From Phycisphaeraceae bacterium (GTDB taxonomy: Bacteria > Planctomycetota > Phycisphaerae > Phycisphaerales > Phycisphaeraceae), in the NCBI GenBank assembly GCA_029260695.1, contig JAJDCT010000120.1, positions 1 to 18,212 of the forward strand: a stretch of DNA of 18,212 bases, written 5' to 3'. Below are positions 519 to 13,670 of this stretch, piece after piece. Made by a program: the position numbers and the translations under genes. The notes below the pieces were generated by a model, which saw nothing but the letters and a program-made list of their open reading frames with translations, was not told the origin of the DNA and searched no databases. The first letter of the stretch is position 1, and the number at the start of each line of letters is the position of its first letter.

Positions 519-891
519 AGCCCTTGGCCTTCTTCACGCCGTACTTCGATCGACCGCGGTTACGGCCTTCGACACCCAGGCAGTCAAGCGAGCCGCGGAC
601 AACGTGATACCGCACACCAGGCAAGTCACGCACACGACCACCACGGACCAGCACGATGCTGTGTTCCTGGAGGTTGTGACCTTCGCCGCCGATGTAGGCC
701 GAGATTTCCTTGCCGTTAGACAGGCGGACACGGCAGACCTTACGCAGAGCCGAGTTAGGCTTCTTGGGGGTCACCGTCTTCACCTGCAGGCAGACGCCGC
801 GCCTCTGTGGACAGGCGTCCAGGTCCTTGACCTTGGATTTGGCCTTGGGCGTGCGTCGGGGATTGCGGACGAGCTGATTAATCGTGGGCAT
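517..891 (-). CDS. rpsL: 30S ribosomal protein S12
   Basis: S12 sits at the decoding centre and shapes tRNA selection and streptomycin sensitivity. The protein is 124 aa, the standard length, with no gaps against the family pattern: [12 protein letters not shown] at the N-terminus, [11 protein letters not shown] at 41-51, [11 protein letters not shown] at 68-78 and PGVRYH at 91-96. Lys43 is kept. Residue 88, normally Lys in the GGRVKDLPG loop, is Arg here (codon CGT, complement at 628-630); K88R confers streptomycin resistance in mycobacteria and E. coli (K87R in E. coli numbering). There is no clear Shine-Dalgarno sequence before the ATG. A promoter lies about 75 nt upstream. The gene before it is a glycosyltransferase, so rpoBC is not directly adjacent here. 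Confidence 0.97.
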
Positions 892-925
892 GTCTGGCCG
901 TTCCGGGTATCTGGTGGAATCCGGA

Positions 926-996
926 GGTTATCCGGGGTTATCCAAGTCGTACGATTCGAGCCGGGTAGTATAGGTTGACCCGGCAGGATCTTGCAA
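926..996 (-). promoter_or_regulatory. rpsL promoter with palindrome over the -10 box and a repeat-bearing leader
   Basis: Read on the minus strand, a -35 TTGCAA (991-996) is followed by an 18-nt spacer and a -10 TATACT (967-972). Transcription would start near 960, leaving a leader of roughly 70 nt before the rpsL ATG. An inverted repeat, CCGGGT (961-966) and ACCCGG (978-983), brackets the -10 box with an 11-nt gap and could be an operator. The leader contains GGATAACC twice in a 10-nt tandem register (926-933 and 936-943). The boxes are read by eye; no start has been measured. Confidence 0.55.
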
Positions 997-1065: not shown

Positions 1066-2310
1066 TCACTGACTTGATTTGGGCTGATTTAACCCAGACG
1101 CCTGCCGGAGCAGACCCGCCAGCAGATCCACGTGGGTACTCATCGAAAGCACCCCATCAAGCCCCGTGGTGGCCTCACGGCACTTCGCAAGCTCCCGCGG
1201 GTCGGTCAGGGCCTGCATCGCGTCCGCCAGAGCCGAGGCGTCCGCCGGGTCCTTTATCACCCGCCCTCGCACCGGGGCCGCTCCATCAACGGCGCCGCCA
1301 GACAGTATTCCGGGGGGGGCGATCAGATCGCTGGCACCGTTATAAGCCGTGCTGATCGCCGGGACACCCATCATCAGCGACTCGATCACCACCTTGCTCG
1401 CCGGGTCGTAAAAGGTCGGATGCACGGTCACGTCGGCCGCGGCATACAGAGCCTCGATCCGCTTGGTGTGCCGAACAAAGCGCACCCGGTCCCGGACACC
1501 CAACCGCGCAGCCTGTTGGTTATGACGATGCCAGAAATCTCCCGCCAGCAATACCACCGCCGGGACATCACGGCCTTTGAGTATCTCTAGCGCCCGCATC
1601 AAAGGCTCGAACCCCTTGAGCCGGGGATTGATCGCGGCAAACAGAAACACCGTCACACCGTCCTGAATCTCAAAGCTGTTTCGGATGCGCTTGCGCCACC
1701 GTGCCCGTTGGTCATCATCGACCTTTGGCATGACCGCCGCGTTTGGGATCAACTCCACCTTCTCGGGAGGCAGGTTGTAGTGCCGCTTAAGTTGCTCGGT
1801 CACATACCGGCTGACCGCCGCGACCTTCACCAGACCTTCGTCTTGAAACGCACGCCGTTCGAAATACAACAGCAACTGTTGCTTAGGATTCAGCCACACA
1901 CCGACACGCTTAACGGCACGGGCCAACCACGTCGGCCTCATCGCGATGTTGCGATCCAATGTCTCGCGAACAGTCCCGCCCCTGGGTTGCAACACGGCTG
2001 CGGGCACGGCGGTGGTCATCGACAAGGTGACATCAAACCCGCCGTCTTCCAGTTGTTTGTGCGCCCAGCTTCTAAATAGAAACAGCCGAAGTGCCGACGA
2101 ACGCTTGCGTCGAGCCATCGCCTTGATCTCAACACCCGGGAGGCAGCCCGTGTCCCGACACCCCCCCGCCAGAAGCGTGACCGCGTGCCCTCGGCCGACA
2201 AGATCCAGCGCAATCTGTGCGGTCGAACGCTCCAACCCCCCCGCGTATGGATCGAAGCCCTCGATCACAATCGCGATCTTCATACTCGTTGAACGATCAG
2301 CTCCGCTCAC
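1066..2310 (-). CDS. Glycosyltransferase family 4 (GT-B fold), probable LPS core sugar transferase
   Basis: The protein is 414 aa and fits retaining GT4 enzymes of the WaaG type, which add a sugar from a nucleotide donor to the growing LPS core at the cytoplasmic face of the inner membrane. The N-terminal Rossmann half begins MKIAIVIEGFDPYAGGLER, with the GG of the acceptor loop. The C-terminal half has LKGFEPLMRAL (about 230-242), then HPTFYDPASKVVIESLMMG near 300-320. The family's E-x7-E motif is D-x7-E here. The longest frame starts with GTG at 2310 and overlaps the waaF stop as GTGA, suggesting translational coupling. An ATG at 2281-2283 (residue 10) is an alternative start, because recognisable homology begins there. 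The donor and acceptor sugars cannot be read from sequence. No terminator follows it. Confidence 0.85.
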   Translation of the reverse strand: MSGADRSTSMKIAIVIEGFDPYAGGLERSTAQIALDLVGRGHAVTLLAGGCRDTGCLPGVEIKAMARRKRSSALRLFLFRSWAHKQLEDGGFDVTLSMTTAVPAAVLQPRGGTVRETLDRNIAMRPTWLARAVKRVGVWLNPKQQLLLYFERRAFQDEGLVKVAAVSRYVTEQLKRHYNLPPEKVELIPNAAVMPKVDDDQRARWRKRIRNSFEIQDGVTVFLFAAINPRLKGFEPLMRALEILKGRDVPAVVLLAGDFWHRHNQQAARLGVRDRVRFVRHTKRIEALYAAADVTVHPTFYDPASKVVIESLMMGVPAISTAYNGASDLIAPPGILSGGAVDGAAPVRGRVIKDPADASALADAMQALTDPRELAKCREATTGLDGVLSMSTHVDLLAGLLRQASGLNQPKSSQ

Positions 2311-3398
2311 GCCCGGGCCCCCACACCCTGCGCCAAATCAATCACCTGTCTGGCCACCATCTGAGCATCAATCCGCGTCATGCAGCGGTGATCCAGCGGG
2401 CATTTTTTCTTCTGGCAAGGCCCACAAAAAACCTTCACCATCACCTGACGCTCAGCATCAAACCCGATCTCCGTCCAAGCCGGGTCCGTCGGGCCAAAAA
2501 TAGTCACGACCGGCGTCCCCAACGCCGCAGCCACATGACGCGGCCCCGTGTCGTTGGTCACCATCACCGAGGCCCGCCTGACGATGCTCTTGAGCAGGCT
2601 CAGAGGCATCCCCGCCGCGGACAGATCCAGGATCGGCGTCTTGGCCCCGGCAATCACACGGTCAAGGATCGCACGCTCCTTGGGTGAGCCGTTCACCGCC
2701 ACAAACGCGTCCAGCTCCTCCGCGCATCGGTCAGCCACCTCGGCGAATCTTTCCGGCTGCCACATCTTCGCGTCGCCGTAGTTCGCCCCGGGGTTCAACA
2801 GCACCAGCTTCCGGCCGGCGTCGGGATCGAACCCGCCTTGGCTCAGCAGATCATCAGCCTGGGCATCATGTTCCGGCCGGGTAAATAACTGCATCCCCGG
2901 GTCCGGGTCGACACTCCCAAGATACCTGGCCAGCCCCAGGTAATAATCCCGCGTGGGGACAGGCACAAAACCTTCCAGTGTCCGCCGGGCCAGCAGCCGG
3001 TCGGTGAGCAAGACACCCCGCCCATCGCGGTCATACCCCACACGCCTGGGGATCTTCGCCATCGCCGTCACCAGCGCGCTGCGGAAACTATTCGGCAGGA
3101 TCACCGCCGTATCGAAATGCCCCGCCGCCAGCCTCGCCGACAAACGGATCGGACCGCCCCGCCTCCCATCCGCCCGCCCCTTGCGCTTGCCACGGACCGT
3201 GACGGTGCGGTTGATCCAGGGGTTGGCATCCATGATCGGGCGGACCGCCGCGCCCACCAGGGCCGTGATATGGGCTTGCGGGTACAACCCCCGTAAGGCA
3301 CGCAGCGTTGGCATCGCCATCACGCAATCGCCCAGCCAGGTCGGCATCACCACCAACAGCCGATTCGCATCTTTAACGGGAGATTCCTCGGGGGGCAT
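2307..3398 (-). CDS. waaF: ADP-heptose:LPS heptosyltransferase (family GT9, WaaF-like)
   Basis: GT9 enzymes transfer L-glycero-D-manno-heptose from ADP-heptose onto the lipid A-Kdo core or a preceding heptose, in the cytoplasm before export. The 363-aa protein has the ordered family signatures: PTWLGDCVMAMPTLRALR (about 19-36), NPGANYGDAKMW (about 202-213), TNDTGPRHVAAALGTP (about 285-300) with FGPTDPAWT after it, and the heptosyltransferase II-type cysteine cluster CGPCQKKKCPLDHRCM near the C-terminus. Next to gmhB and a GT4 gene it belongs to one LPS-core block. The ATG at 3396-3398 has no Shine-Dalgarno sequence but has a TATACT box 7 nt upstream, so its mRNA may be leaderless. WaaF versus another GT9 paralogue is not certain. 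Confidence 0.9.
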   Translation of the reverse strand: MPPEESPVKDANRLLVVMPTWLGDCVMAMPTLRALRGLYPQAHITALVGAAVRPIMDANPWINRTVTVRGKRKGRADGRRGGPIRLSARLAAGHFDTAVILPNSFRSALVTAMAKIPRRVGYDRDGRGVLLTDRLLARRTLEGFVPVPTRDYYLGLARYLGSVDPDPGMQLFTRPEHDAQADDLLSQGGFDPDAGRKLVLLNPGANYGDAKMWQPERFAEVADRCAEELDAFVAVNGSPKERAILDRVIAGAKTPILDLSAAGMPLSLLKSIVRRASVMVTNDTGPRHVAAALGTPVVTIFGPTDPAWTEIGFDAERQVMVKVFCGPCQKKKCPLDHRCMTRIDAQMVARQVIDLAQGVGARA

Positions 3399-3405
3399 CC
3401 GACCA

Positions 3406-3414
3406 AGTATACCA
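3406..3414 (-). promoter_or_regulatory. Extended -10 box 7 nt before waaF
   Basis: On the minus strand the sequence TGG-TATACT (3406-3411 for the hexamer, TG at 3413-3414) is followed by 7 nt and the waaF ATG. It matches an extended -10 element (TGnTATAAT); no good -35 is visible. Transcription would begin at or beside the ATG. Evidence is the match and its position only. Confidence 0.5.
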
Positions 3415-3449
3415 ACGTCGAACGATCCGCCCCCGAGGCCCAGAATGGA

Positions 3450-4646
3450 TCACCGGTCCCACAAGATCGCCGCGATGACCGCAAGCTGGGCCACCACCGC
3501 AGAGCCGATCAGCCGCACGAACAGGTCGCTGTCCGCCGAGCCCAGCCAGAACGCGCCCAACAGGCAGGCACCCGAAATGGTCTGTAGAACGATCGCCATG
3601 ATCCGGATGTAAGAAAATTCGGTCCCCGTGCCGCGCTGGTTCCGCAGCTCTTGTAGGATCAATCGCAGCGTTTTCTCATCCGCACCCTGCGGCACCTCAG
3701 CGGCCTGCACCTGCTTCGGCGGCTCGACAGCCGGTCTTGCCGGAACGGCAGATGTGTTGGACTGGCTGGTTACAGACTCCGATGGGTCCGCATCTTCCTG
3801 GTCGTCATACTCGGCAACCGGCACGTTCCAAGGCCTAAACGGTTTAGGCTCTTGCTGAGTCACCGGACCCGCAGCGGTGGCGGTAGCCTCCGACCCCGGC
3901 TGTGCGCTTAGGTTTTCCTGGTCGCTGTCCTCGCTACGATCCCGCTTCCCCTCGCGCTGGAGCTTGGCGACCGACGCGGCGTCCCACTTACGCTGGGGTT
4001 GCCCGGTCCGGTGGATCTGCTCGGCCGTCTCGGGCTTGCGCTGCTGGGCAACGATCCGTACCGCCTCGACCAGGTTGCGGGCATAAAAGTCGGGCGTCGC
4101 CGGGTGCCCCTCGGTCTCGCCGGAATGCTCGTTAAGCCCCGGGTGTTCGCGCGGGTCGAACGGCTTGAGTCGGTCGGCATCTAAGCGCAATAAAACCGCA
4201 CGCGTCCCGGCAGCCAGACCGGCTTGTACATCACGCACCTGGTCGCCGATCGTCCAACTCTGCAAAAGGTCCAACCCCATCTCACGCGCCGCTTCCTGCA
4301 ACATCCCCGGCGAGGGCTTGCGGTTGGGATGTTCCTTTCGGTACCGGCTGACCGTGCCCTCGGGGTGGTAAGGGCAGTAGTAGTAACGATCGATCTTTGC
4401 CCCATTGGCACCGGCGGCAAGGAGTTCGCTCAGACGCTCGTGCACCGCCTCAACATCCTCTTCGGTGTACTTGCCCCGCGCTACGCCGCCCTGGTTGGTA
4501 ATCACCACGACCTTGTAGCCCAGCCCGCACAGCGACGCCACAGCCGACGCCACCCCCTGCATCAGGCGCACCTTCGCTGGATCACCCAGGTCCCCGTCGT
4601 TGTGGATGAGCGTGTTATCGCGATCTAGGAAGACAGCCGCATTCAT
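3450..4646 (-). CDS. gmhB: HAD-family D,D-heptose 1,7-bisphosphate 7-phosphatase fused to a linker and two-helix membrane tail
   Basis: GmhB removes the 7-phosphate during ADP-heptose synthesis. Residues 1-200 form the HAD domain: nucleophile motif FLDRDNT (Asp8, Asp10), VITNQGG (about 49-55), RKPSPGM (109-115) and TIGDQVRD (132-139). The usual zinc loop is half conserved: C91 and H94 are present, but the second Cys-x-Cys is replaced by EHPN, so zinc binding may be lost or use H106. Residues about 200-340 are polar, Gln/Pro/Ala-rich and probably disordered. Residues about 343-398 hold two hydrophobic helices, predicting attachment to the inner membrane. E. coli GmhB is a soluble protein of about 190 aa, so the tail is extra. 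I chose the ATG at 4644-4646 over an in-frame TTG at 4682 because homology starts there and a -10 box lies 6 nt upstream. waaF follows 51 nt downstream. Confidence 0.85.
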   Translation of the reverse strand: MNAAVFLDRDNTLIHNDGDLGDPAKVRLMQGVASAVASLCGLGYKVVVITNQGGVARGKYTEEDVEAVHERLSELLAAGANGAKIDRYYYCPYHPEGTVSRYRKEHPNRKPSPGMLQEAAREMGLDLLQSWTIGDQVRDVQAGLAAGTRAVLLRLDADRLKPFDPREHPGLNEHSGETEGHPATPDFYARNLVEAVRIVAQQRKPETAEQIHRTGQPQRKWDAASVAKLQREGKRDRSEDSDQENLSAQPGSEATATAAGPVTQQEPKPFRPWNVPVAEYDDQEDADPSESVTSQSNTSAVPARPAVEPPKQVQAAEVPQGADEKTLRLILQELRNQRGTGTEFSYIRIMAIVLQTISGACLLGAFWLGSADSDLFVRLIGSAVVAQLAVIAAILWDR

Positions 4647-4652
4647 ATGTGC

Positions 4653-4682
4653 AGGATAATCGGGAAACGGGCGCCGGGCCAA
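4653..4682 (-). promoter_or_regulatory. Promoter 6 nt before gmhB
   Basis: Minus-strand -35 TTGGCC (4677-4682), an 18-nt spacer and -10 TATCCT (4653-4658), then 6 nt to the gmhB ATG. The -35 shares TTG and one C with the consensus. Position again predicts a start at or next to the ATG. It lies in the 60-nt gap after gmk, so gmhB may be transcribed both from gmk and alone. Confidence 0.45.
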
Positions 4683-4706
4683 TAGATCGACCCGCCCTCC
4701 AGACAG

Positions 4707-5321
4707 TCAAACCGAGTGCGTCTGGCTCTTGCGCCTTCGTTCCAACTCATCCGCCACGGCCTGCACGGCCTGGTCCACCGCGACATCCAACTCGTCATTG
4801 ACGATAAAGGCGTCATAGACATCGCATCCGCGGGCACGGTCGATCTCGTGCTTGGCCCGGGCGAATCGGCCTCGGATGGTCTGCTCATCCTCGCGTTGAC
4901 GGCGGCGCAGCCGTTGCAACAGCGCCTCCTCACTGGGCGGCTCGATAAACAGCGCGAAGCTATCGGGCATGTTCTTCTTGATCTGGATCGCACCCTCGAC
5001 GTCGATCTCGAGGATCATCAGCCGGCCGTCGTCCAGGTTCTCTTCGACCGGTCGGCGGGGTGTGCCGTAGTAGTTGCCGAAGACCTTGGCCCACTCCAGA
5101 AGCTTGCCCGCGTCGCGTTGGCGTTTGAATTGGGCCTCATCCACGAAGTGGTAGTCCACGCCGTCGGTGTCTTCCCCGGTGATCGGGCGGGTGGTCATGG
5201 AGACACTGAAGACCGCGCCAAGGCGCACACGGACACGGTGAGTGATCGTGGTCTTGCCGACCCCGGACGGGCCGGAAATGATCAGCAAAAGGCCGTTTGG
5301 GTTATCAACGGGGGTTCCCAT
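4707..5321 (-). CDS. gmk: Guanylate kinase
   Basis: Guanylate kinase phosphorylates GMP to GDP with ATP in the cytosol. The 204-aa protein is the normal length. Walker A is GPSGVGKT at 17-24. GMP-binding landmarks follow: SMTTRPITGEDTDGVDYHF (about 41-59) with TTRP and DYHF, then NYYGTP, and LEIDVEGA, which corresponds to the family's DVQG/DVDG segment. The lid region is RRRQREDEQTIRGR. It stands between pyrB (78 nt upstream) and gmhB (60 nt downstream). The ATG has no Shine-Dalgarno sequence and an extended -10 box lies 6 nt before it. Nucleotide metabolism is the common theme with the preceding pyrRB pair. Confidence 0.96.
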   Translation of the reverse strand: MGTPVDNPNGLLLIISGPSGVGKTTITHRVRVRLGAVFSVSMTTRPITGEDTDGVDYHFVDEAQFKRQRDAGKLLEWAKVFGNYYGTPRRPVEENLDDGRLMILEIDVEGAIQIKKNMPDSFALFIEPPSEEALLQRLRRRQREDEQTIRGRFARAKHEIDRARGCDVYDAFIVNDELDVAVDQAVQAVADELERRRKSQTHSV

Positions 5322-5327
5322 CTGCTA

Positions 5328-5336
5328 GTTATACCA
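5328..5336 (-). promoter_or_regulatory. Extended -10 box 6 nt before gmk
   Basis: On the minus strand TGG-TATAAC (hexamer at 5328-5333, TG at 5335-5336) is followed by 6 nt and the gmk ATG. The hexamer differs from TATAAT at one base and has the TGn extension; no -35 is apparent. This implies a leaderless gmk mRNA. Confidence 0.5.
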
Positions 5337-5399
5337 GATGTGTTGAGATTTGGGGATGGTGGCTTGCGATTTAGTTGGCTGGTGTAGCGTTTGCCGGGG

Positions 5400-6359
5400 C
5401 TAAACCGGCGCACCGCTGACCAGGAACAAGGCCGCCATCCTGACGCTCAGGCCATTGGCAACCTGCTGAAGGATCGCCGAGTTGGGTCCATCAGCCACCA
5501 CGGAATCGATCTCAACCCCACGGTTCATCGGGCCGGGGTGCATCACCAGCAGATCGGGCTTGGCTCTACTGAGCCGCTGGGCGTTTAGCCCGAAACGTGT
5601 GGAATACTCGCGGACGCTTGGGAAAGCCTGGCTGGTCAGCCGTTCGAACTGGATACGCAGCATGTTCACCACGTCGACCCGTGGCAGCACATCGTCGAGG
5701 CTGTTGGATAGCTCGCAACCGATATCTGTAAACGCCCCGGGCAGCAGCGTCGGCGGGCCGACCAGGATCACATGGGCGCCGAGTTTGATCAGGCCGTAGA
5801 CGTTCGACCGTGCGACCCGGCTGTGTGTGATGTCCCCTACGATCGCGACGGTGAGCCCGGAGAAGTCGAACGAATCGGTCCTGCCGGTGCGCTTGGCGAT
5901 GGTGAGGATATCCAAAAGCCCCTGGGTGGGGTGTTCGTGCTGACCGTCCCCGGCGTTGATCACCGAGCAATCCACCGAACGCGCCAGGTGGGCCGCCGCC
6001 CCGCTGTGGTGGTGCCGACAGACGATCACGTCCACGCCCATCGCTTCGATATTGCGGGCGGTGTCGATCAGCGTCTCGCCTTTGGAAACACTCGAGCCCT
6101 TGCCCGCCATCTCAAGCACATCTGCGGAGAGGCGGCTTGCCGCGAGATTGAAGCTGGCTCGGGTGCGTGTCGAGTCCTCAAAAAACAGGTTCACCACCAC
6201 CCGGCCACGCAGCGCGGGCACTTTTTTCACGCTCCGTGTCGATACGCCGTCAAAGCCCAACGCGGTCGTCAGCAGGAACCGGATGTCCTGAGCCGACAGG
6301 TCCTCTAAGCCCAACAAATGGCGGTGCGGCCAGTGGTATCCGGGTTGCGTTTCAGCCAC
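5400..6359 (-). CDS. pyrB: Aspartate carbamoyltransferase catalytic chain
   Basis: PyrB joins carbamoyl phosphate and L-aspartate, the committed step of pyrimidine synthesis. With the start used here the chain is 319 aa, typical for catalytic subunits. Carbamoyl-phosphate binding STRTR is at 63-67, the SVSKGE loop that reaches across subunits at 90-95, HPTQ at 143-146, GDITHSRV at 175-182 and HPGPMNRG near 276-283. I chose the GTG at 6357-6359, not the ATG at 6413, because it overlaps the pyrR stop by only 8 nt and is preceded by a purine-rich GGAGGGGG; earlier starts would lie deep inside pyrR and precede the conserved domain. Neither a pyrI regulatory chain nor pyrC is adjacent; gmk follows. 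Coupled translation with pyrR is likely. Confidence 0.95.
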   Translation of the reverse strand: MAETQPGYHWPHRHLLGLEDLSAQDIRFLLTTALGFDGVSTRSVKKVPALRGRVVVNLFFEDSTRTRASFNLAASRLSADVLEMAGKGSSVSKGETLIDTARNIEAMGVDVIVCRHHHSGAAAHLARSVDCSVINAGDGQHEHPTQGLLDILTIAKRTGRTDSFDFSGLTVAIVGDITHSRVARSNVYGLIKLGAHVILVGPPTLLPGAFTDIGCELSNSLDDVLPRVDVVNMLRIQFERLTSQAFPSVREYSTRFGLNAQRLSRAKPDLLVMHPGPMNRGVEIDSVVADGPNSAILQQVANGLSVRMAALFLVSGAPV

Positions 6360-6981
6360 GCTCCACCCCCTCCCGCTCGCCTTCATCAAAGACCACCACG
6401 GCGTCCCTCTCATCCGTCGGCGTCACCATGACCTGCACCTTGGCCCCCGGCGCCAACGCCTCGTCTGCCCCCTCCGTCAGGTCAAGCCCAACAAAATCAG
6501 GCGCGATCGGAAGCTCCCGCCCACCTCGGTCTACCAGCACTCCTAGCCACACCCGCCGGGGTCGGCCCAGGTCCATCAGCGACTGCAAGGCCGCACGGAT
6601 CGACCGCCCGGTCATCAGGACGTCGTCGATCAGGACCACGTTCAGGCCATCAATTGGGAAATCTATCTCGGTCGTGCGCACCACCGGCTGCGGCCCGATC
6701 TCGGAGAGGTCATCTCGATAGAGCGTGATATCCAGCGTACCGATACGGCCTTCAAACCGCTCCGCACTAAGCCGCTCGGCGATCCTCTGAGCCAGCACAT
6801 CCCCCCGGCTACGCACACCGACCAACGCCCAACCCCCGCATGGGGCGTCTTTGGGGCTACTTTCGGGGGTTTGTCCGCCTGACGCTTGAGGGTGCCCCGG
6901 ACTCGCGATCGTGTCACTTATCCCAACACACAGCGAATCGATTAATTCCGAGAAGCGGTCACCATCGGCGAGCACACGCAT
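6352..6981 (-). CDS. pyrR: PyrR, bifunctional pyrimidine regulator / uracil phosphoribosyltransferase, with an inserted loop
   Basis: PyrR is a PRPP-binding protein that in Bacillus senses UMP, binds pyr mRNA leaders and promotes termination; many members also make UMP from uracil. The 209-aa product has GVRSRG (55-60), the LDITLYRDDLSE segment (83-94) and the PRPP loop VVLIDDVLMTGRSIRAAL (115-132). LVDRGGRELPI follows. It is longer than the usual ~180 aa because of a Pro/Gly/Ser-rich insertion at about 27-48. I chose the ATG at 6979-6981 rather than a GTG at 7002: a complete promoter ends 6 nt before it and would be transcriptionally incompatible with the longer form. It overlaps pyrB by 8 nt. 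No leader RNA exists for PyrR to bind ahead of the pair. Confidence 0.9.
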   Translation of the reverse strand: MRVLADGDRFSELIDSLCVGISDTIASPGHPQASGGQTPESSPKDAPCGGWALVGVRSRGDVLAQRIAERLSAERFEGRIGTLDITLYRDDLSEIGPQPVVRTTEIDFPIDGLNVVLIDDVLMTGRSIRAALQSLMDLGRPRRVWLGVLVDRGGRELPIAPDFVGLDLTEGADEALAPGAKVQVMVTPTDERDAVVVFDEGEREGVERG

Positions 6982-6987
6982 GGCCGC

Positions 6988-7015
6988 ATGGTAGCCAAGC
7001 ACACGGGGCTTGCAA
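6988..7015 (-). promoter_or_regulatory. pyrR-pyrB promoter, -10 box 6 nt before the ATG
   Basis: Minus-strand -35 TTGCAA (7010-7015), 16-nt spacer, -10 TACCAT (6988-6993), then 6 nt to the pyrR ATG. The -35 hexamer is identical to that of the rpsL promoter. A start at about 6981 leaves no 5' leader. Confidence 0.5.
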
Positions 7016-7036
7016 CCTCAGCCGCACCCAACCCGA

Positions 7037-8245
7037 TCACCGGGCCGTCCCCTTGACCAACGAATCGTCCGCCACAAGCGTGATCGCGACCGATGCCTCG
7101 TCACGGGTGCCTGCGTTTTCGTCGTAGACACGGATCTTCAGGTGGTACTGACCCATCCGCAACTCCGCCGGGAGCGTCACCAACTGCACCACGAAAAAGT
7201 CTCGCCGCTTGTTGTGCGATACATCCGTGATCTGCACCGGCTCGTGGCTCCAGACCTCAAACCCGTTGGATTCATACAGCTCCAACTCCTGCCGCAGACG
7301 CACCTCGTACCCGTCGCCACGGTCTTGCTTCATTGGCTTGAAGTGGTCCAACTCGACATAGACAATCAGCTTCTGCTGACGCCCCGCCACAAATGTATGG
7401 TCCGGGAAAGTGTCGTAAACACCGTAGCCCATCACCTTCTCGCAGAGCTCGATCGTGCGGATCGAAACAGGCTGGCTGCCGTACAACTCGTCCAGGCGAT
7501 GTGCGACGGCTTCCCGATCGACCTCCCCGCCGCCCGCAAGCAACTCACCGCGTAGTGTGGTGACGGCCCTGTGATAGCGTTGGACCAGTTCCTGATCCTC
7601 CGGCGACAGCGACGCGAGCATCGACCAGTCCAACTCGCCGTGTGGCCCGACCGCTGCAAGGGTCGCTGCTGTGACCGCCTTGGATAGGTTCGAATCCCCT
7701 CCACCACGGACCGCCTGGAGATACTGCTCATAGACCTGCGCCTGGGTCAGTTGCTCGCCGACATTCGACGGATTGGCCCGTGCCGATGCCCCTGGGGTCT
7801 GCGACGTCAGCGCGTGGGGGGGCGCCTGGATATCCGCCGTAGTGAGCCCCGCTTCGATCACACCGCTGGAAGATGCCGTCGCCGTTGGCTTTGTGTGTTC
7901 GGCGTGGGCGACCGGGGTAGCCGGAACCGCTTGGACGCCTACAAGAGGCTGCCCACCCGTGCCTGGCCCTGCGCCCAAATCCCGCCAGAGGATCTCCTGT
8001 GGCGGCCCGGTTTGGGCTGCACCCCCAACCGCCGCGACACGCTGAGCGTGTGCCTGCGCCTGGGATGCGAGGTCTACATCAGGCTCCGCCGAAGCCATAT
8101 CCGCTTGGGATTCGGGGGCCGCCTGTGATCCGGGGGCTGGGGAGGATTCCATCAGGCCTATCGGCAGCCCAAGCTCCTGGCAACCGCTGACCAGACCCAA
8201 TACCAAGGTGCCAAAACACCACCATTGAAATGACGCGCGTCGCAT
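7037..8245 (-). CDS. Orphan lipoprotein with low-complexity N-terminal half and a conserved-looking beta-rich C-terminal domain
   Basis: I do not recognise a named family. The 402-aa protein begins MRRA, then a hydrophobic stretch ending in the lipobox LVSGC, so Cys22 should be lipid-modified and the mature protein anchored in the inner or outer membrane, facing the periplasm. Residues about 30-170 are Ala/Gln/Pro/Ser/Thr-rich and likely disordered. Residues about 170-260 are helical (QVYEQYLQAV, SPEDQELVQRYHRAV). Residues about 275-395 alternate like a beta sandwich (YDTFPDHTFVAG, KLIVYVELDHF, YHLKIRVYDENAG). A strong AGGAGG lies 4 nt before the ATG, unlike its neighbours. It sits 110 nt after holA and 55 nt before pyrR, so operon membership is unclear. 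Confidence 0.85.
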   Translation of the reverse strand: MRRASFQWWCFGTLVLGLVSGCQELGLPIGLMESSPAPGSQAAPESQADMASAEPDVDLASQAQAHAQRVAAVGGAAQTGPPQEILWRDLGAGPGTGGQPLVGVQAVPATPVAHAEHTKPTATASSSGVIEAGLTTADIQAPPHALTSQTPGASARANPSNVGEQLTQAQVYEQYLQAVRGGGDSNLSKAVTAATLAAVGPHGELDWSMLASLSPEDQELVQRYHRAVTTLRGELLAGGGEVDREAVAHRLDELYGSQPVSIRTIELCEKVMGYGVYDTFPDHTFVAGRQQKLIVYVELDHFKPMKQDRGDGYEVRLRQELELYESNGFEVWSHEPVQITDVSHNKRRDFFVVQLVTLPAELRMGQYHLKIRVYDENAGTRDEASVAITLVADDSLVKGTAR

Positions 8246-8283
8246 CGTGCCTCCTGCATGCTAGGCCGTGGAATACAGCCAAC

Positions 8284-8299
8284 GGTTCATCCATGAACC
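8284..8299. promoter_or_regulatory. Inverted repeat upstream of the lipoprotein gene
   Basis: GGTTCAT (8284-8290) and ATGAACC (8293-8299) form a 7-bp inverted repeat with a 2-nt centre, 38 nt before the lipoprotein ATG. The tight centre suits a DNA-binding dimer better than an RNA hairpin. I could not find convincing -35/-10 boxes around it. Confidence 0.3.
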
Positions 8300-8355
8300 T
8301 TACCGCGTAACCCTGCCCCCGGATTCTTCTCCCAGTAATCCGCTCGATACCCGAC

Positions 8356-9375
8356 TTACTTTACATTATCGGCCAGCCGGACGCAGAAGCATTCGAGATT
8401 CCGCGTTAGGTTCCCAAACCCCGACTTCGCCCGCCGGTCCGCCTCCAGGACATCGTCAAACGCCGCCGCCAACGACTTGGGGTCCAACCGGCGCAGCACA
8501 CCCATAAATAACTGCTGCCGCGGCCCCCACAGCTTCATCGCCCGGGCGATCTCACCCTCGGGCACCCCCGCCCCCTTCATCAGGGCAGCCGTATTGAGCT
8601 TGCGCACCAGGTCGGCCACGAAATACATCACCAGCACCTCGGCGTGCCCCGCCAGAGCCAGCAGCTCTCGCACCTTCCCGATCACCGGCCCAGCCGACCG
8701 CGAACCCAGCCCCTCCAACACCGCCTCCTGCACCTCCCACGCCTTCTCATCGCTGCTCTTGCCCACCACCTGCTCGATCAGCCCCCGCTCGATCGCCTCA
8801 CCTTTCCCGACCATCAACGCCAGCTTCGCCAACTCGCTGTCCAGTGTCATCAGCTCCGGCCCAAGCCGATCCACCAGCAGCCCCGCCGCCGCAGGCTCGA
8901 TCGCGCAGCCGTGCTCCGCGGGACAACGCTTGACCACCCAACCCTTCGCCTGCACCGGCTTCAAAGGCTCACACTTAATCACCGCACCCACCTTGGCGAT
9001 CAGCTTGTCCAGGTTCCCCTTGTTCCAGGTGTCGCTGCGCAACACCAGCGTCGCGTGGTCCACCGGGGCCTTGGCGTACCGCTCCATCGCCTCGCGGTGC
9101 AATTTTACATACTGGTCCGCGTTGTCGACCACAACGATCTTGTGGTGCTGCATCAGCGCGTAGCTGCGCAGCTCGTCCAGTACATCCGCCACGCCCGCGG
9201 TCTTCCCATCAAAGCTGAATGTCTCGGTCTCCCCGTGCGCAGCATCCAACGCCTTGCGCAGGTCGTCCAGGTGCCGGCCCTTAAGCCACTGCTCCGGCCC
9301 ATACAACACACACACCCGCGTCTCCACGCCGAGTGCTGCCTTGCTCTTGCCGGATGCTTTGGTCGTTCGAGCCAT
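8356..9375 (-). CDS. holA: DNA polymerase III delta subunit
   Basis: The delta subunit opens the beta sliding clamp within the clamp-loader complex. The 339-aa protein has the expected three-part layout. It opens with VCVLYGPEQWLKG, a degenerate P-loop region as usual for delta. Then come LRSYALMQHHKIVVVDNAD, an ERYAKAP region, the helical middle (LTLDSELAKLAL, with ERGLIEQVVGKS) and a C-terminal collar (SRSAGPVIGKVRELLALAGH, then LTRNLECF). Two ATGs compete: 9385-9387 and 9373-9375. I chose the second because the first lies inside a TATGAT -10 box, so a transcript from that promoter cannot include it. The gene follows the anti-sigma gene by 41 nt. The assignment rests on overall pattern, as delta is poorly conserved. 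Confidence 0.85.
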   Translation of the reverse strand: MARTTKASGKSKAALGVETRVCVLYGPEQWLKGRHLDDLRKALDAAHGETETFSFDGKTAGVADVLDELRSYALMQHHKIVVVDNADQYVKLHREAMERYAKAPVDHATLVLRSDTWNKGNLDKLIAKVGAVIKCEPLKPVQAKGWVVKRCPAEHGCAIEPAAAGLLVDRLGPELMTLDSELAKLALMVGKGEAIERGLIEQVVGKSSDEKAWEVQEAVLEGLGSRSAGPVIGKVRELLALAGHAEVLVMYFVADLVRKLNTAALMKGAGVPEGEIARAMKLWGPRQQLFMGVLRRLDPKSLAAAFDDVLEADRRAKSGFGNLTRNLECFCVRLADNVK

Positions 9376-9382
9376 GAACCGG

Positions 9383-9391
9383 ATCATACCA
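9383..9391 (-). promoter_or_regulatory. Extended -10 box 7 nt before holA
   Basis: Minus-strand TGG-TATGAT (hexamer 9383-9388, TG at 9390-9391) precedes the ATG at 9373-9375 by 7 nt. No clear -35 is visible. The box itself contains the alternative upstream ATG, which decides the start choice for holA. Confidence 0.45.
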
Positions 9392-9416
9392 TGAACGACC
9401 AGAGCACTTCACCTGC

Positions 9417-10589
9417 TTACTCCAGCCAGTAGGACATGCCAAGTACCTGAATCCGATTGATGGGCCAGTCGATTTCCTGCTCAGCCACTAGGTGATCGTT
9501 GAAGAATACTTGCAATGTCTCGCCGCGGTGTTCGCTGGTGAGTGCGTGCAGCTTGTCCCAATCTTTCACCTCTCTGCGGTCGCCGCTGCCATCAAAATCC
9601 TGCTCCGTCAGTAATACGGTGCCGTCCTCTAGGCCTACACGGATGCGCAAAGGTTGCTCAAGTTCTCCGTCAGGTGTGAGTTGTATTTGCCAATTTTCGG
9701 TGCGATCCCAGAGAACCGTTTCGGGCGGCAGGTCGAACACGCTGTCGTCGATCGGCTCATCACGTACGTAATCTTCAAACGTCACATTGGTTTCCCATGG
9801 TCCCTTCTCGCCTGTGTTCCACAAGTGAAACTGCCACTTGACAGGCAAGGAATACTCGGCATCGACCCAGACTTGTACCTCCGCTTCACCCTTGGCGTCC
9901 TTTGTGCTTCCGATCATCTGATCCGCCGGCAAGCTGTATATCAGCGTGCGCCGGCCATCAATCATTTCCTTACCTTTCAGAGTCGCGTTATCGGCTACGA
10001 GCATCTGTTTAATGAAGGGATCTAAATCTGAGAAGGTAGCTGGCTTGGTCGGCTTTTTTGGCGGATAGGTATACAAACGGATCCCATTCAGCGTTTGTAT
10101 TGAATTATTAATGTGAATCTCATATCTGCCTGGACGCGTGAAGGTAATCATGTCCGGTGTCCGATCCTCGTCGCCTCCAGTGGAACGGTGGTAAGCATCA
10201 AGCCGTGATCCCATGCCGGTTTTGATTCGGACCGATGACCAGCTGTTGAGAACTTTCCGCTGCTCATTGTCCGGACCCACCACCATCTTCTGTGTCATCC
10301 GGAACGAGACGGTCTTCGTGGGTTTCGCGAGGTTGGCCTGCATCTGCTCCCAGGCGTGAGCCGGCTGAGCCTGCATCGACATCAATCCCCAGACCAGCGC
10401 GATCGTCAGGCTTGCCGCCACCGCCCCACCAATCGCGACCGGAAAACGCCAGCGACGCGCCACCGGTTTGAATGTGTCGATCCGTTCCAGCAGACGTCTG
10501 TCAGCTTCAGGGGGTACATCGCCACGCAACGTCTTGCCAAGCAGTGCGTCCACGGGATGTTCGTTGTTGGATTGGTTATCGCGGTTCAT
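9417..10589 (-). CDS. Putative anti-sigma factor: short cytoplasmic head, one membrane helix, LolA-like periplasmic domain
   Basis: The gene overlaps the ECF sigma gene by 14 nt (10576-10589) and has a GAGGTG Shine-Dalgarno sequence inside the sigma coding end, so the two are co-made. The 390-aa product has a short charged cytoplasmic region (1-48), one membrane helix at about 49-72, and a periplasmic part. Residues about 80-290 (HAWEQMQANL, then PGRYEIHIN, DGRRTLIYSL, VWVDAEYSLPVKW) resemble the LolA/RseB-like lipoprotein-carrier fold found in envelope-stress sensors. A C-terminal extension of about 100 aa has no assignment. It lacks the HxxxCxxC zinc motif of ZAS anti-sigma proteins. The role is inferred from position and topology. 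The ligand is unknown. Confidence 0.7.
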   Translation of the reverse strand: MNRDNQSNNEHPVDALLGKTLRGDVPPEADRRLLERIDTFKPVARRWRFPVAIGGAVAASLTIALVWGLMSMQAQPAHAWEQMQANLAKPTKTVSFRMTQKMVVGPDNEQRKVLNSWSSVRIKTGMGSRLDAYHRSTGGDEDRTPDMITFTRPGRYEIHINNSIQTLNGIRLYTYPPKKPTKPATFSDLDPFIKQMLVADNATLKGKEMIDGRRTLIYSLPADQMIGSTKDAKGEAEVQVWVDAEYSLPVKWQFHLWNTGEKGPWETNVTFEDYVRDEPIDDSVFDLPPETVLWDRTENWQIQLTPDGELEQPLRIRVGLEDGTVLLTEQDFDGSGDRREVKDWDKLHALTSEHRGETLQVFFNDHLVAEQEIDWPINRIQVLGMSYWLE

Positions 10590-11100
10590 AACACACCTCG
10601 TTAGGGATCAGGGAGGCGAGGTATCGTCTTAATCGCTCCCGTGCACGCCGTACATGAGCGCGTGCGGTTGAAGCGGTGCATCCCAGGGCAGCGGCGACAT
10701 CGTCATAGGACATCTGCTCGATCACCCGCAGGTAGATCGCTTCGGCTTGCTGCCCGGGCAGTTTTGCGATCTCGATCAGCACCCGCTGGCGTGCTTCCTC
10801 GACAATCATGTTGTCCAACGGCGAATTCTCATTGCCAGCCACCGCGGCAGGCATCGGTTCGGCGCGCAATCGAATGTGCCGGCGTAAACGGTCCATCGCG
10901 GCCTGAAAACACATCCGCACGATCAACGCTGGCGGATTGGGGTGGGCCAGCACCACCCAACGCTTCTTCCAGATACGCAGCAGCGCATCCTGCAAAGCGT
11001 CCTCGGCCTGATCAGTGTCCCGAAGCACCCGCCAGACCACGACCACCATCTGTCGCCGGGTGAGCCGTAGGTAGTGATCCAAGTCGACAGATTCAGTCAT
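10576..11100 (-). CDS. ECF-type RNA polymerase sigma factor
   Basis: The 174-aa protein has the two conserved regions of ECF sigma-70 factors and nothing else. Region 2 holds RDTDQAEDALQDALLRIWKK (27-46), which binds core polymerase and the -10 element. Region 4 holds LPGQQAEAIYLRVIEQMSYD (114-133), then a helix-turn-helix AALGCTASTARAHVRRARERL that reads the -35. Start: ATG at 11098-11100, with GGAGG 4 nt upstream. It heads a pair with the downstream membrane anti-sigma candidate, the usual arrangement for signal-released ECF factors. A 7-bp inverted repeat lies in its upstream region. The target regulon cannot be read here; members of this kind are numerous in Planctomycetota. Confidence 0.92.
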   Translation of the reverse strand: MTESVDLDHYLRLTRRQMVVVVWRVLRDTDQAEDALQDALLRIWKKRWVVLAHPNPPALIVRMCFQAAMDRLRRHIRLRAEPMPAAVAGNENSPLDNMIVEEARQRVLIEIAKLPGQQAEAIYLRVIEQMSYDDVAAALGCTASTARAHVRRARERLRRYLASLIPNEVCYEPR

Positions 11101-11131
11101 GGGGCCTCCACAACCACATTAACGATCTCGG

Positions 11132-11162
11132 CAACGGTGGTGTGTACAGTAATTGACCGTTG
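11132..11162. promoter_or_regulatory. Inverted repeat in the ECF sigma upstream region
   Basis: CAACGGT (11132-11138) and ACCGTTG (11156-11162) are perfect 7-bp inverted repeats separated by 17 nt, with the palindrome TGTACA in the spacer. The element lies 32-62 nt before the sigma ATG, where a promoter or operator is expected. The two half-sites are 24 bp apart centre to centre, roughly two or more helical turns. I see no convincing housekeeping promoter overlapping it. The rest of the 216-nt gap 11101-11316 shows only the hairpin listed separately. Confidence 0.4.
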
Positions 11163-11247
11163 AAGGTGAAATTCAGCCCTCTGATCCCCGAAAATCATCC
11201 TGCAGTTGGGCAATAAGGGTTTGATGTGTTTCTGGTCGCTGGATTGT

Positions 11248-11263
11248 CTGCCCTCGGGGGCAG
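11248..11263 (-). terminator. Hairpin after mgtE, possible weak terminator
   Basis: CTGCCC (11248-11253), 4-nt loop, GGGCAG (11258-11263), a perfect 6-bp stem 53 nt past the mgtE stop. There is no T-run after it on the minus strand, so it is at best a weak or Rho-assisted end for the surE-mgtE transcript. Confidence 0.3.
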
Positions 11264-11316
11264 TAAGCAGCCAAGACCCGGCTCCTGCTCACTTCACCCC
11301 CACCCACCACGCCCCT

Positions 11317-12684
11317 CTACAACAGCAGCGTCGCAAACAGCAGCACGATCAGGAAACTAAAGACGTCCACAACCGTCGTCACCACCGGCCCGGACGCCAT
11401 CGCCGGGTCCAAACCGACTGACCGCAGCACCAGAGGCACCGTCCCCCCCACTGTTTTGGCGATCAGGATCACGATCGGGACCGCCCCGCCGACCACCAGG
11501 CCCAGGTACAAGTCCTGCTGCCAGACCCAGATGATCACCAGCAGCAACGCCCCAAGCACCGCACCCGCGACCAGCGATAGCGCCGCCTCTTTGATGAAGA
11601 CCCGCAGGAAGTCACCGGGCATGATCAGCCCCAGCGACACCTCCCGCAGCGACACACCCACCGCCTGGTTCCCACCGCTGCCGCAGAGCCCCGCGACCAC
11701 CGGCAAAAACATCGCCAACTCCGGGCGCCTGGCAATCATGCTTAGGAATATATGGATCACGCTCGCGGAGATCAGCAGCAGCACCATGATCGGAAGCAGG
11801 AACACCAACCGCCTCAAAAGCCGCGGGACCATCGGCATCGACCGAAACTCTTCACCGGCAACGATACCCGCAACCATCAAGAGGTCTTCGTTAGCCGAAT
11901 CGCTTAACGCCTCCTGAACCGCCGCACGCTGCACCACCCCGACAAGCCGTTCATCGGCATCCACCACAGGGACCGCCGAGAAGTCCACACGGTCGAACAG
12001 GCCTTCCATGTCTTCCAACGCCGTATCCACCGCCACACTCCGGGGCTTATTGATCGCCAGGTCCGCCAGCTTACGCCCCGCCGGGGCCATCACCAGGCTC
12101 CGCATCCGGACCACGCCGACAAACTTCCCCGCCGCGTCGATCAGGTAGGTGTACCGCACCTCGAATTCGTTGTACTCATCCGCATTCGCACGCAGGTCGG
12201 CGATCACCGCGTCCACATCCTGGCCTTCCCGGTAAGCCAGGTACTCGGTAATCATCAGCCCACCGGCGGTGTCCTCCTCGTATTGCAGACGGTGCCGGGC
12301 GTCCGCCGCCTCTTCCGGGTCCATCTCTTCGAGGATCGCCTCGGCATCATCGTCAGCCAGCTCCGCGAGCACGTCCGTCTGCTCGTCTGAGTCCATCTCA
12401 TCCACGATCGCCGCCGCTTCGCTGGGCTCGAGCTGCTCGATCATGTCGGCCGCATGCTCGTCGACGAAGTGCTCCATCAGGTCGGCGGCGAGGTCGGAGT
12501 GCTCCGCCGACAACAGCGACAGCATCCGCGTACGGAGCTCATCATCCAGGTGACTGATCGTGTAGGTCGTGTCCTCAGGCGGTAGCAGGTGCAGGAAAGC
12601 CGCCAGGTGCTCGGCGTTACCCGAGTCGATCACCTGCGATAGCTGCTGCGTCGCGTCCATATCGATCTGAGGGTCGAAAGTCAT
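11317..12684 (-). CDS. mgtE: Magnesium transporter MgtE
   Basis: MgtE is a dimeric Mg2+ channel in the inner membrane, gated by cytosolic Mg2+. The 455-aa protein has the complete domain order. The acidic helical N domain (about 10-125, repeated LADDDAEAILEEMDPEE-type turns) is followed by two CBS domains (about 130-250). Five membrane helices (about 285-455) come last. Pore-domain signatures are present: GSGGNQAVG and PAMASGPVVTTVVDV, with the conserved Asp. I use the ATG at 12682-12684, preceded by GGAG at about 9 nt, instead of an in-frame TTG two codons earlier. It follows surE after 47 nt with an intercistronic hairpin between. I see no Mg2+ riboswitch; there is no room for one. Confidence 0.95.
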   Translation of the reverse strand: MTFDPQIDMDATQQLSQVIDSGNAEHLAAFLHLLPPEDTTYTISHLDDELRTRMLSLLSAEHSDLAADLMEHFVDEHAADMIEQLEPSEAAAIVDEMDSDEQTDVLAELADDDAEAILEEMDPEEAADARHRLQYEEDTAGGLMITEYLAYREGQDVDAVIADLRANADEYNEFEVRYTYLIDAAGKFVGVVRMRSLVMAPAGRKLADLAINKPRSVAVDTALEDMEGLFDRVDFSAVPVVDADERLVGVVQRAAVQEALSDSANEDLLMVAGIVAGEEFRSMPMVPRLLRRLVFLLPIMVLLLISASVIHIFLSMIARRPELAMFLPVVAGLCGSGGNQAVGVSLREVSLGLIMPGDFLRVFIKEAALSLVAGAVLGALLLVIIWVWQQDLYLGLVVGGAVPIVILIAKTVGGTVPLVLRSVGLDPAMASGPVVTTVVDVFSFLIVLLFATLLL

Positions 12685-12703
12685 CCGCAATCTCCGTCAC
12701 CCA

Positions 12704-12725
12704 TGGGCCGGCTAAATCCGGCCCA
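12704..12725 (-). other. Intercistronic hairpin between surE and mgtE
   Basis: TGGGCCGG (12704-12711), 6-nt loop, CCGGCCCA (12718-12725): an 8-bp perfect GC-rich stem beginning 6 nt after the surE stop. No T-tract follows, so it is unlikely to terminate efficiently. It could stabilise the upstream message or partly uncouple expression of the two genes. Confidence 0.5.
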
Positions 12726-12731
12726 CAGAAA

Positions 12732-13535
12732 TCATCCGATGTGCTCACACCAACGCGGCAACTGAACCGGGTCCGTCACGTCGTGCTGCAGCGGTGTCAG
12801 CGTAATATAACCATCAAACAACGCCGCCACGTCCGTCCCCGGCTCACGGTTGCGGAACGTCATCTCGTTGCAGCACTCGTAATGGAAAGAACCGTCTCCC
12901 GCTGGGGTGATCTCGTATTTGTCTACCATCGAGCTGGTCGAGATCGGTGCTGCCTTCATCCCCTTGGGCTCGGCACCGCCGTCGAGCACAGGGATATTTA
13001 TATTCATGACCGTGTGCGGTGTCATCGGCCCATCCAGTACACGCCGGATGGCCTCACCCGCGTACCGCGCGGATGCCTCCCACCGGATCGCGTTCCAATC
13101 ATCCACGTGCTGACTCACCGCGATCGCGGGGAGCCCCATAAACGCCGCCTCACGGGCCGCACCCACCGTCCCGGAGTAGATCACATTCACCCCGACATTC
13201 GCCCCGGCGTTGATCCCGCTGATGACCAGGTCGATGGGCTGGGGCACCAGGTTCGCAATCGCCAGCTTCACACAGTCCGCCGGCCTCGCCCCCACGCTCG
13301 TCCCGGTAAAGCCCGTGAACTCCTCGCCATCACGAGGATCAGCACCGGGGAGAATCTGGGGGCTTGTGTAGCTGGCGACACGGATCGGCCGGTGAAAGGT
13401 CACCGCATGGCTCGTCGCCGACTGCACCTTCTGCGGCGCAACCACATGCACCTCTCCCAGGTCAGCGATCGCCTTGTACAGCACGTGCAACCCCGGGGCT
13501 TCGATCCCATCGTCATTTGTCAGCAATATTCGCAT
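12732..13535 (-). CDS. surE: 5'/3'-nucleotidase SurE
   Basis: SurE is a metal-dependent phosphatase acting on nucleoside 5'- and 3'-monophosphates, linked to stationary-phase survival. The 267-aa protein begins MRILLTNDDGIEAPGL with the metal-binding NDDG at 7-10. APQKVQSATSHAVTFHRP (about 34-51) supplies the metal-site Ser region. SGINAGANVGVNVIYSGTVGA (about 103-123) with AREA after it is the family signature carrying the metal-site Asn. Length and order are normal. The ATG at 13533-13535 has no Shine-Dalgarno sequence; a TACAAT box is 7 nt upstream. It is the first gene after the ribosomal-cluster terminator and is followed by mgtE. Confidence 0.96.
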   Translation of the reverse strand: MRILLTNDDGIEAPGLHVLYKAIADLGEVHVVAPQKVQSATSHAVTFHRPIRVASYTSPQILPGADPRDGEEFTGFTGTSVGARPADCVKLAIANLVPQPIDLVISGINAGANVGVNVIYSGTVGAAREAAFMGLPAIAVSQHVDDWNAIRWEASARYAGEAIRRVLDGPMTPHTVMNINIPVLDGGAEPKGMKAAPISTSSMVDKYEITPAGDGSFHYECCNEMTFRNREPGTDVAALFDGYITLTPLQHDVTDPVQLPRWCEHIG

Positions 13536-13542
13536 GAGTCCG

Positions 13543-13548
13543 ATTGTA
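13543..13548 (-). promoter_or_regulatory. -10 box 7 nt before surE
   Basis: Minus-strand TACAAT (13543-13548) is followed by 7 nt and the surE ATG. There is no TG extension and no good -35. It lies just beyond the rplQ terminator, where a new promoter is needed, which raises its credibility. Confidence 0.4.
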
Positions 13549-13600: not shown

Positions 13601-13630
13601 AAAAAAAAGCCGACCCATCACGGGGTCGGC
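13601..13630 (-). terminator. Rho-independent terminator of the map-rplQ ribosomal operon
   Basis: On the minus strand GCCGACCC pairs with GGGTCGGC across a 6-nt loop (8 bp, 13609-13630), followed directly by a run of eight T (complement of A at 13601-13608). This is a textbook intrinsic terminator about 40 nt past the rplQ stop, and the only strong one in the window. Confidence 0.95.
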
Positions 13631-13670
13631 CTTCACAAAAGTATTGATTACTGCCAGCCGCGAAGACCGG

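Follow-up and report, generated by a model that had tools for sequence, protein, structure and literature searches.

Six genes of the window carry a TA-rich box next to the start codon

The window analyzed here is an 18,212-nt stretch of DNA, contig C120 (18.2 kb) of an uncultured Phycisphaeraceae bacterium whose metagenome-assembled genome comprises 2.84 Mb in 492 contigs and is 77% complete. Its gmk is 83-92% identical to those of five Phycisphaeraceae/Planctomycetota metagenome-assembled genomes (MAGs), and the class is Phycisphaerae. Pfam matches on the minus strand reveal ribosomal genes and rpoA, surE, mgtE, a sigma factor gene with the gene that follows it, holA, a lipoprotein-like gene, pyrR-pyrB, gmk, gmhB, waaF and a glycosyltransferase gene; the labels waaF, gmhB, pyrR, lipoprotein and anti-sigma are adopted from an earlier note made by reading the sequence. 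That note held that six of these genes have a -10 box 6-7 nt before the ATG in place of a Shine-Dalgarno (SD) sequence and are transcribed as leaderless mRNAs. We refer to such genes as box-led and to the distance between box and start codon as the gap. The genes and the elements read from the sequence are as follows.

2307..3398, minus strand: waaF-like heptosyltransferase gene (PF01075), box-led
3406..3411, minus strand: putative -10 box TATACT, 7 nt before the waaF ATG (3398), TGG ahead
3450..4646, minus strand: gmhB-like HAD phosphatase gene (HAD domains), box-led; start 4646 from a gene caller blind to upstream sequence
4653..4658, minus strand: putative -10 box TATCCT, 6 nt before the gmhB ATG (4646)
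4677..4682, minus strand: -35-like TTGGCC, 18 nt before the gmhB box
4707..5321, minus strand: gmk (guanylate kinase) gene (PF00625), box-led
5328..5333, minus strand: putative -10 box TATAAC (extended form CTGGTATAAC), 6 nt before the gmk ATG (5321)
6352..6981, minus strand: pyrR-like phosphoribosyltransferase gene (PF00156), box-led; start 6981 from the gene caller
6988..6993, minus strand: putative -10 box TACCAT, 6 nt before the pyrR ATG (6981)
7010..7015, minus strand: -35-like TTGCAA, 16 nt before the pyrR box
8356..9375, minus strand: holA (DNA polymerase III delta) gene (PF06144), box-led; start by orthologue alignment
9383..9388, minus strand: putative -10 box TATGAT, 7 nt before the holA ATG (9375), TGG ahead
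12732..13535, minus strand: surE gene (PF01975), box-led
13543..13548, minus strand: putative -10 box TACAAT, 7 nt before the surE ATG (13535)
13605..13634, minus strand: terminator-like hairpin and U run in the rplQ-surE gap (fold -27.4 kcal/mol, z -2.72 versus shuffles)

A check of the sequence places all six boxes at the distances claimed, with TGG ahead of the waaF, gmk and holA boxes and the -35-like hexamers of pyrR and gmhB at 16 and 18 nt. The proposed consensus TANNNT fits five of the six; the gmk box is TATAAC, so the class is not strictly TANNNT. The last base of the gmk box, a position that is usually conserved, is C; the box is nonetheless identical in five same-genus loci. The holA box stands at 7 nt as claimed only if the gene starts at ATG 9375. 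The gene caller had picked an alternative ATG at 9387, but we place the start at 9375: the upstream ATG falls within the box, and the alignment to four same-genus orthologues begins only at the codon at 9375. A consensus promoter scan, which requires both hexamers, lists none of the six sites.

The earlier note judged six hits at two spacings to be beyond chance, and the count agrees: five strict TANNNT boxes lie at gaps 6-7 among 19-21 starts where 0.33-0.36 are expected (Poisson P 2.4e-5 to 3.9e-5). This figure is post hoc because the pattern was chosen by the earlier reader, so contigs outside the window are the test that counts.

TANNNT peaks 6-7 nt before starts that lack a Shine-Dalgarno sequence

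Genes were called with a program written for this analysis, which sets starts from codon usage and start-codon type and never from upstream sequence. Of 42 starts annotated in a 50-kb stretch of E. coli it reproduces 28 exactly, and positional peaks are therefore diluted. The own-genome sample comprises 60/492 contigs plus the window (368 kb of 2.84 Mb; 241/272 called starts used), and 400 kb of G013, a genome of the same family, gave 265/274 usable starts; genes at contig edges, with <60 nt upstream or containing N were dropped.

The earlier note predicted a TANNNT peak at 6-7 nt confined to genes without an SD sequence, and both genomes bear this out. In the own genome TANNNT stands at gap 6 before 12 starts and at gap 7 before 10 (22/241), over a background of 2.07 per position; 20/144 non-SD starts have it at these gaps versus 2/97 SD starts (Fisher p 1.2e-3; window included). 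G013 shows the same peak, with 17 starts at gap 6 and 7 at gap 7 (24/265), divided into 23/173 non-SD and 1/92 SD starts (p 4.8e-4). In other planctomycete loci (L088-L098) the box precedes 7/48 non-SD versus 0/33 SD starts. SD-like tetramers themselves peak at 8 nt in the own genome and at 7 nt in G013.

We also scanned all 64 XYNNNZ patterns at 41 distances before non-SD starts. With the window left out (60 other contigs, n=132), TANNNT at gap 7 (P 5.5e-6) and at gap 6 (P 1.0e-5) are the top two of the 64 x 41 combinations, as they are with the window included. Gaps 6 and 7 likewise rank as the top two in G013, where gap 6 reaches P 4.1e-16. Direct counts of narrower motifs point the same way: over the whole own genome TAYMAT precedes ATG 47 times at gap 6 versus 8 times at gap 9, the histogram of TATAAT-to-ATG gaps peaks at 6 (11) and 7 (6) of 83, and across 37 family genomes TATAAT at gap 6 outnumbers the reversed pattern by 377 to 98.

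The same pipeline recovers the signal in a known leaderless lineage, with 10/98 starts at gaps 6-7 on plasmid 2 of Deinococcus deserti (150 kb), and finds 2/105 and no peak in E. coli K-12 (150 kb). In-frame TAA or TAG stop codons could have inflated gap 6; we reject this artefact as the main cause because most hits are not TAA/TAG (16/20 in the own genome, 14/23 in G013) and gap 7 is out of frame.

Boxes and their distance to the start are conserved between species

In loci of the same genus (L083-L087; counts take in the loci holding each gene) the boxes are kept at a near-constant distance, while the flanks have diverged most clearly at gmk and less at surE and pyrR. At gmk, CTGGTATAACT is identical and at the same distance in 5/5 loci with diverged upstream DNA. 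The waaF box stands at gap 7 in 5/5, TANNNT stands at gap 6-7 before gmhB and pyrR in 5/5 each and at gap 6 before holA in 4/4, and the surE box lies at gap 6-7 in 3/3. The -35-like elements are kept as well: TTGCA at the 16-nt spacing before the pyrR box in the window and 5/5 loci, and TTGGC at the 18-nt spacing before the gmhB box in the window and 3/5 (L083, L084, L087), with TTCGC in L085 and L086.

Beyond the genus, the box is present at gap 7 in 3/5 family loci with a waaF match and at gap 6 in 2/2 with a holA match, and a strict gmk box at gap 6-7 in 5/10 other planctomycete loci (L088-L098 without L095). The widest comparison within the family is that of surE, found in 22 of 41 genomes, own included: 15 of the 22 have TANNNT at gap 6-7, two at gap 8 and one at gap 9, and four have none from 6 to 9. 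Setting aside the window's genus leaves 12/19 with gap 6-7. In the orthologue table, some rows of which are one genome twice (for example L087 and L195), rplQ, which is SD-led in the window, has TANNNT at gap 6-7 in 0/12 rows and mgtE in 1/18. The letters of the spacer vary among surE orthologues while its length stays at about 6-7, as a promoter-to-start geometry would predict and a ribosome-binding motif would not.

In the window, gmk, gmhB and waaF (2307-5321) are three co-directional neighbors, each with its own start-adjacent box. Among the 27 gmk loci of the family outside the genus, each of about 3.6 kb or less, gmhB is matched in 19 and waaF in 5.

The boxes resemble extended -10 elements

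Pooling 43 box-led sites from the own genome and G013, we find a G two bases before the box in 25/43 (p 2.4e-5) and TG in 7 versus 2.5 expected (p 0.011), as in extended -10 elements. Box-led genes start with ATG in 20/20 cases in the own genome and 21/23 in G013. A -35 element as the general partner of the boxes is rejected, as the pooled sites show no enrichment. CarD is a possible helper where -35 elements are weak. PF02559 is found in 20/21 genomes, but all 21 matches lie in open frames of >=623 aa, as expected of Mfd, and no short stand-alone CarD frame occurs in the 21 genomes searched, the own genome being 77% complete; CarD as promoter helper is accordingly discarded.

The six box-led genes of the window lie behind co-directional genes

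The earlier note had all six genes opening a transcription unit. That goes further than the sequence shows: each follows a same-strand gene at a gap of 41-135 nt. Folding, applied to the rplQ-surE gap alone, gives the hairpin at 13605..13634 listed above, and a consensus terminator scan comes up empty in all six gaps, the one with this hairpin included. Among genes starting <=20 nt from a co-directional gene, a box precedes 0/25 in the own genome and 2/28 in G013.

The trait is strongest in the order and patchy over the class

At surE, a second family of the order has the box at gap 6 in 4/4 genomes, all of one genus. Outside the order, TANNNT is at gap 6-7 in 2/46 rows. Both counts set the surE start at whichever ATG is closest to the SurE motif (L239 and L289 are without the motif, and L212 was given a later ATG than in the orthologue table). 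The order relative G046 (loci L255-L264) has its TANNNT peak at gap 5, in 8/70 non-SD starts (P 1.2e-9), although surE in that family keeps gap 6; a family-specific shift of the start distance is possible there. G184 and G229 give no TANNNT peak and G090 a weak one. The gene caller finds few genes in lower-GC relatives (G184 43%, G189 47%, G090 50%), and a missing peak there is therefore weaker evidence.

We compared TAYMAT at gap 6 and gap 9, per family, in 198 genomes of the class; gap 9 is a single comparison distance, and binomial P values for the class sums treat the counts as independent. Gap 6 to gap 9 ratios in the families of the order (34 genomes) are 498:255 (f1), 187:110 (f2), 198:129 (f3), 82:46 (f5) and 218:110 (f6), though single genomes such as G008 (0:1) and G406 (11:15) show no excess. 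Outside the order the excess is clear in f85 (383:233), f87 (124:76), f90 (65:31), f94 (633:456) and f96 (221:139), and slight in f86 (2148:1771), f88 (1198:940) and f91 (1313:1025). No clear excess is seen in f7 (277:244), f8 (331:292), f9 (836:822), f84 (55:45), f89 (228:236), f92 (109:125), f93 (87:77), f95 (74:77), f97 (519:493), f98 (495:478), f99 (54:43) and f100 (88:76); f9, f89, f92, f95, f97 and f98 have no gap 6 excess over gap 9. By these counts the order shows the trait most strongly; elsewhere in the class some parts have it and others lack it.

Leaderless transcription and its alternatives

A -10 element spaced 6-7 nt from the ATG sets the transcription start at its A, the usual geometry. 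The boxes are very probably the -10 elements of ordinary vegetative-type promoters pressed against the gene, from which RNA polymerase would start at, or within 1-2 bases of, the A of the ATG. The resulting mRNA would be leaderless, with the ribosome initiating at its 5'-terminal AUG in the absence of a Shine-Dalgarno contact; other genes of the genome, especially those closely behind another gene, would use a Shine-Dalgarno sequence. The 6-7 nt peak in non-SD genes, common to D. deserti and not to E. coli, and the distance kept between species support the earlier note on this point, and leaderless transcription from start-adjacent -10 boxes is very probably the best reading of the sequence.

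Real promoters could also start a few bases off the A, so that most transcripts would be near-leaderless, with a minimal leader or a 5' end slightly within the gene. The gap does vary, being 6 and 7 in the own genome and G013, 5 in G046 and 8-9 in 3/22 surE orthologues. The peak is narrow, however, and transcription usually starts 6-7 nt downstream of the box, so that we hold such an offset to be unlikely; boxes ~12 bp upstream are counted as leaderless by Zheng 2011 (PMC3160421). Less likely by some way is that the TA-rich box acts in translation, as an A/U stretch that is unstructured or binds S1, on a longer transcript whose promoter lies further up. Such an element would suit genes without an SD sequence, and S1 binding has been put forward as an alternative account of the AT-rich bias ahead of non-SD genes in a set that includes one planctomycete species (PMC5397173). 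Against this, the signal is a spaced TA...T hexamer with a strict distance and a preceding G, not general AT richness, and two of the window boxes each have a conserved -35-like element, one at 16 nt and the other at 18 nt. That six look-alike hexamers were simply picked from the window is hardly credible: the pattern was chosen after looking and one of the six is not TANNNT, but the same peak heads the ranking of all tested patterns in other contigs of the own genome and in a relative, and the boxes are conserved between species.

Several observations nonetheless speak against leaderless transcription as the explanation, or limit how far it reaches. When 64 loci of other phyla (L099-L162, most of them from Proteobacteria) are pooled, 13/575 starts have TANNNT at gaps 6-7 versus 3.8 per position (P 0.048, borderline), and the excess, slight, is all at gap 7 (9 versus 3.8 expected). 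The same-class genome G189 has no peak, being one of the lower-GC relatives with few called genes. Outside the genus, loci of the family have a strict TANNNT at gap 6-7 before gmk in 0/27 cases, many of these starts being uncertain, and before gmhB in 6/19. Across the pooled 43 sites there is no -35 enrichment, although two window sites have conserved elements, and the preference of box-led starts for ATG over GTG/TTG is not significant (p 0.051 and 0.18). All six genes being downstream of a co-directional gene, longer read-through transcripts may cross them. What the sequence shows is the positional peak, its confinement to non-SD genes and the conservation of box and distance; from these we infer the transcription start itself, sigma factor use and 5'-AUG initiation at box-led genes.

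Relation to known leaderless genes

Leaderless genes of Deinococcota have TANNNT next to the open reading frame (ORF), with SD-led genes alongside, and make up ~30% of ORFs on average; the -10 motif has been experimentally validated in Deinococcus (PMC12340547). The present boxes are alike in adjoining the start, in their coexistence with SD-led genes and in the 6-7 peak that D. deserti gives by the same pipeline. They differ in frequency: the own-genome excess at gaps 6-7 amounts to ~7% of starts, a lower bound because the caller recovers 28/42 annotated E. coli starts exactly. Zheng 2011 took TANNNT ~12 bp before the start as leaderless in 207/953 genomes and states that in high-GC genomes the middle positions of TANNNT say little (PMC3160421). 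The boxes described here share that motif with Actinobacteria and the other groups of that study, the main text of which does not name Planctomycetes among bacterial groups with leaderless genes. The AT-rich bias reported before non-SD genes of one planctomycete species was taken to hint at leaderless and/or S1-driven starts (PMC5397173); unlike the present boxes, it concerns a single species and comes, in the part of that paper dealing with it, with no box, distance or promoter. The class Phycisphaerae appears in the anti-SD table of PMC10783764, with nothing there on leaderless genes in the class. Among the matches listed (openly licensed PMC papers) there is no description of leaderless genes in Phycisphaerales, although the all-bacteria supplement of PMC12340547 may include Planctomycetota, and no genome-wide transcription-start map of Planctomycetes.

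This is therefore a known kind of gene start in a lineage that appears new for it. On balance we favor the view that Phycisphaerales are, in addition to Deinococcota and Actinobacteria, a further bacterial lineage with a genome-wide split into leaderless and SD-led genes, in which the leaderless status of surE is kept over the family and into a second one of the order without free-standing CarD and the distance was reset in one family (G046, gap 5), while several other families of the class lack the trait. Planctomycetes are studied for their unusual cell biology. If the boxes are promoters of leaderless genes, a single short element would combine promoter and translation start, start-adjacent boxes would let gene starts be corrected in planctomycete MAGs, as for holA, and the patchy distribution within one class would offer a natural comparison of the gain and loss of leaderless genes.

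The rpsL region of the window (891-996) has neither an obvious SD sequence nor a start-adjacent box. The consensus promoter scan places TATACT 75 nt upstream of rpsL, with TTGCAA 18 nt before it, and rpsL may have a leader without an SD sequence.

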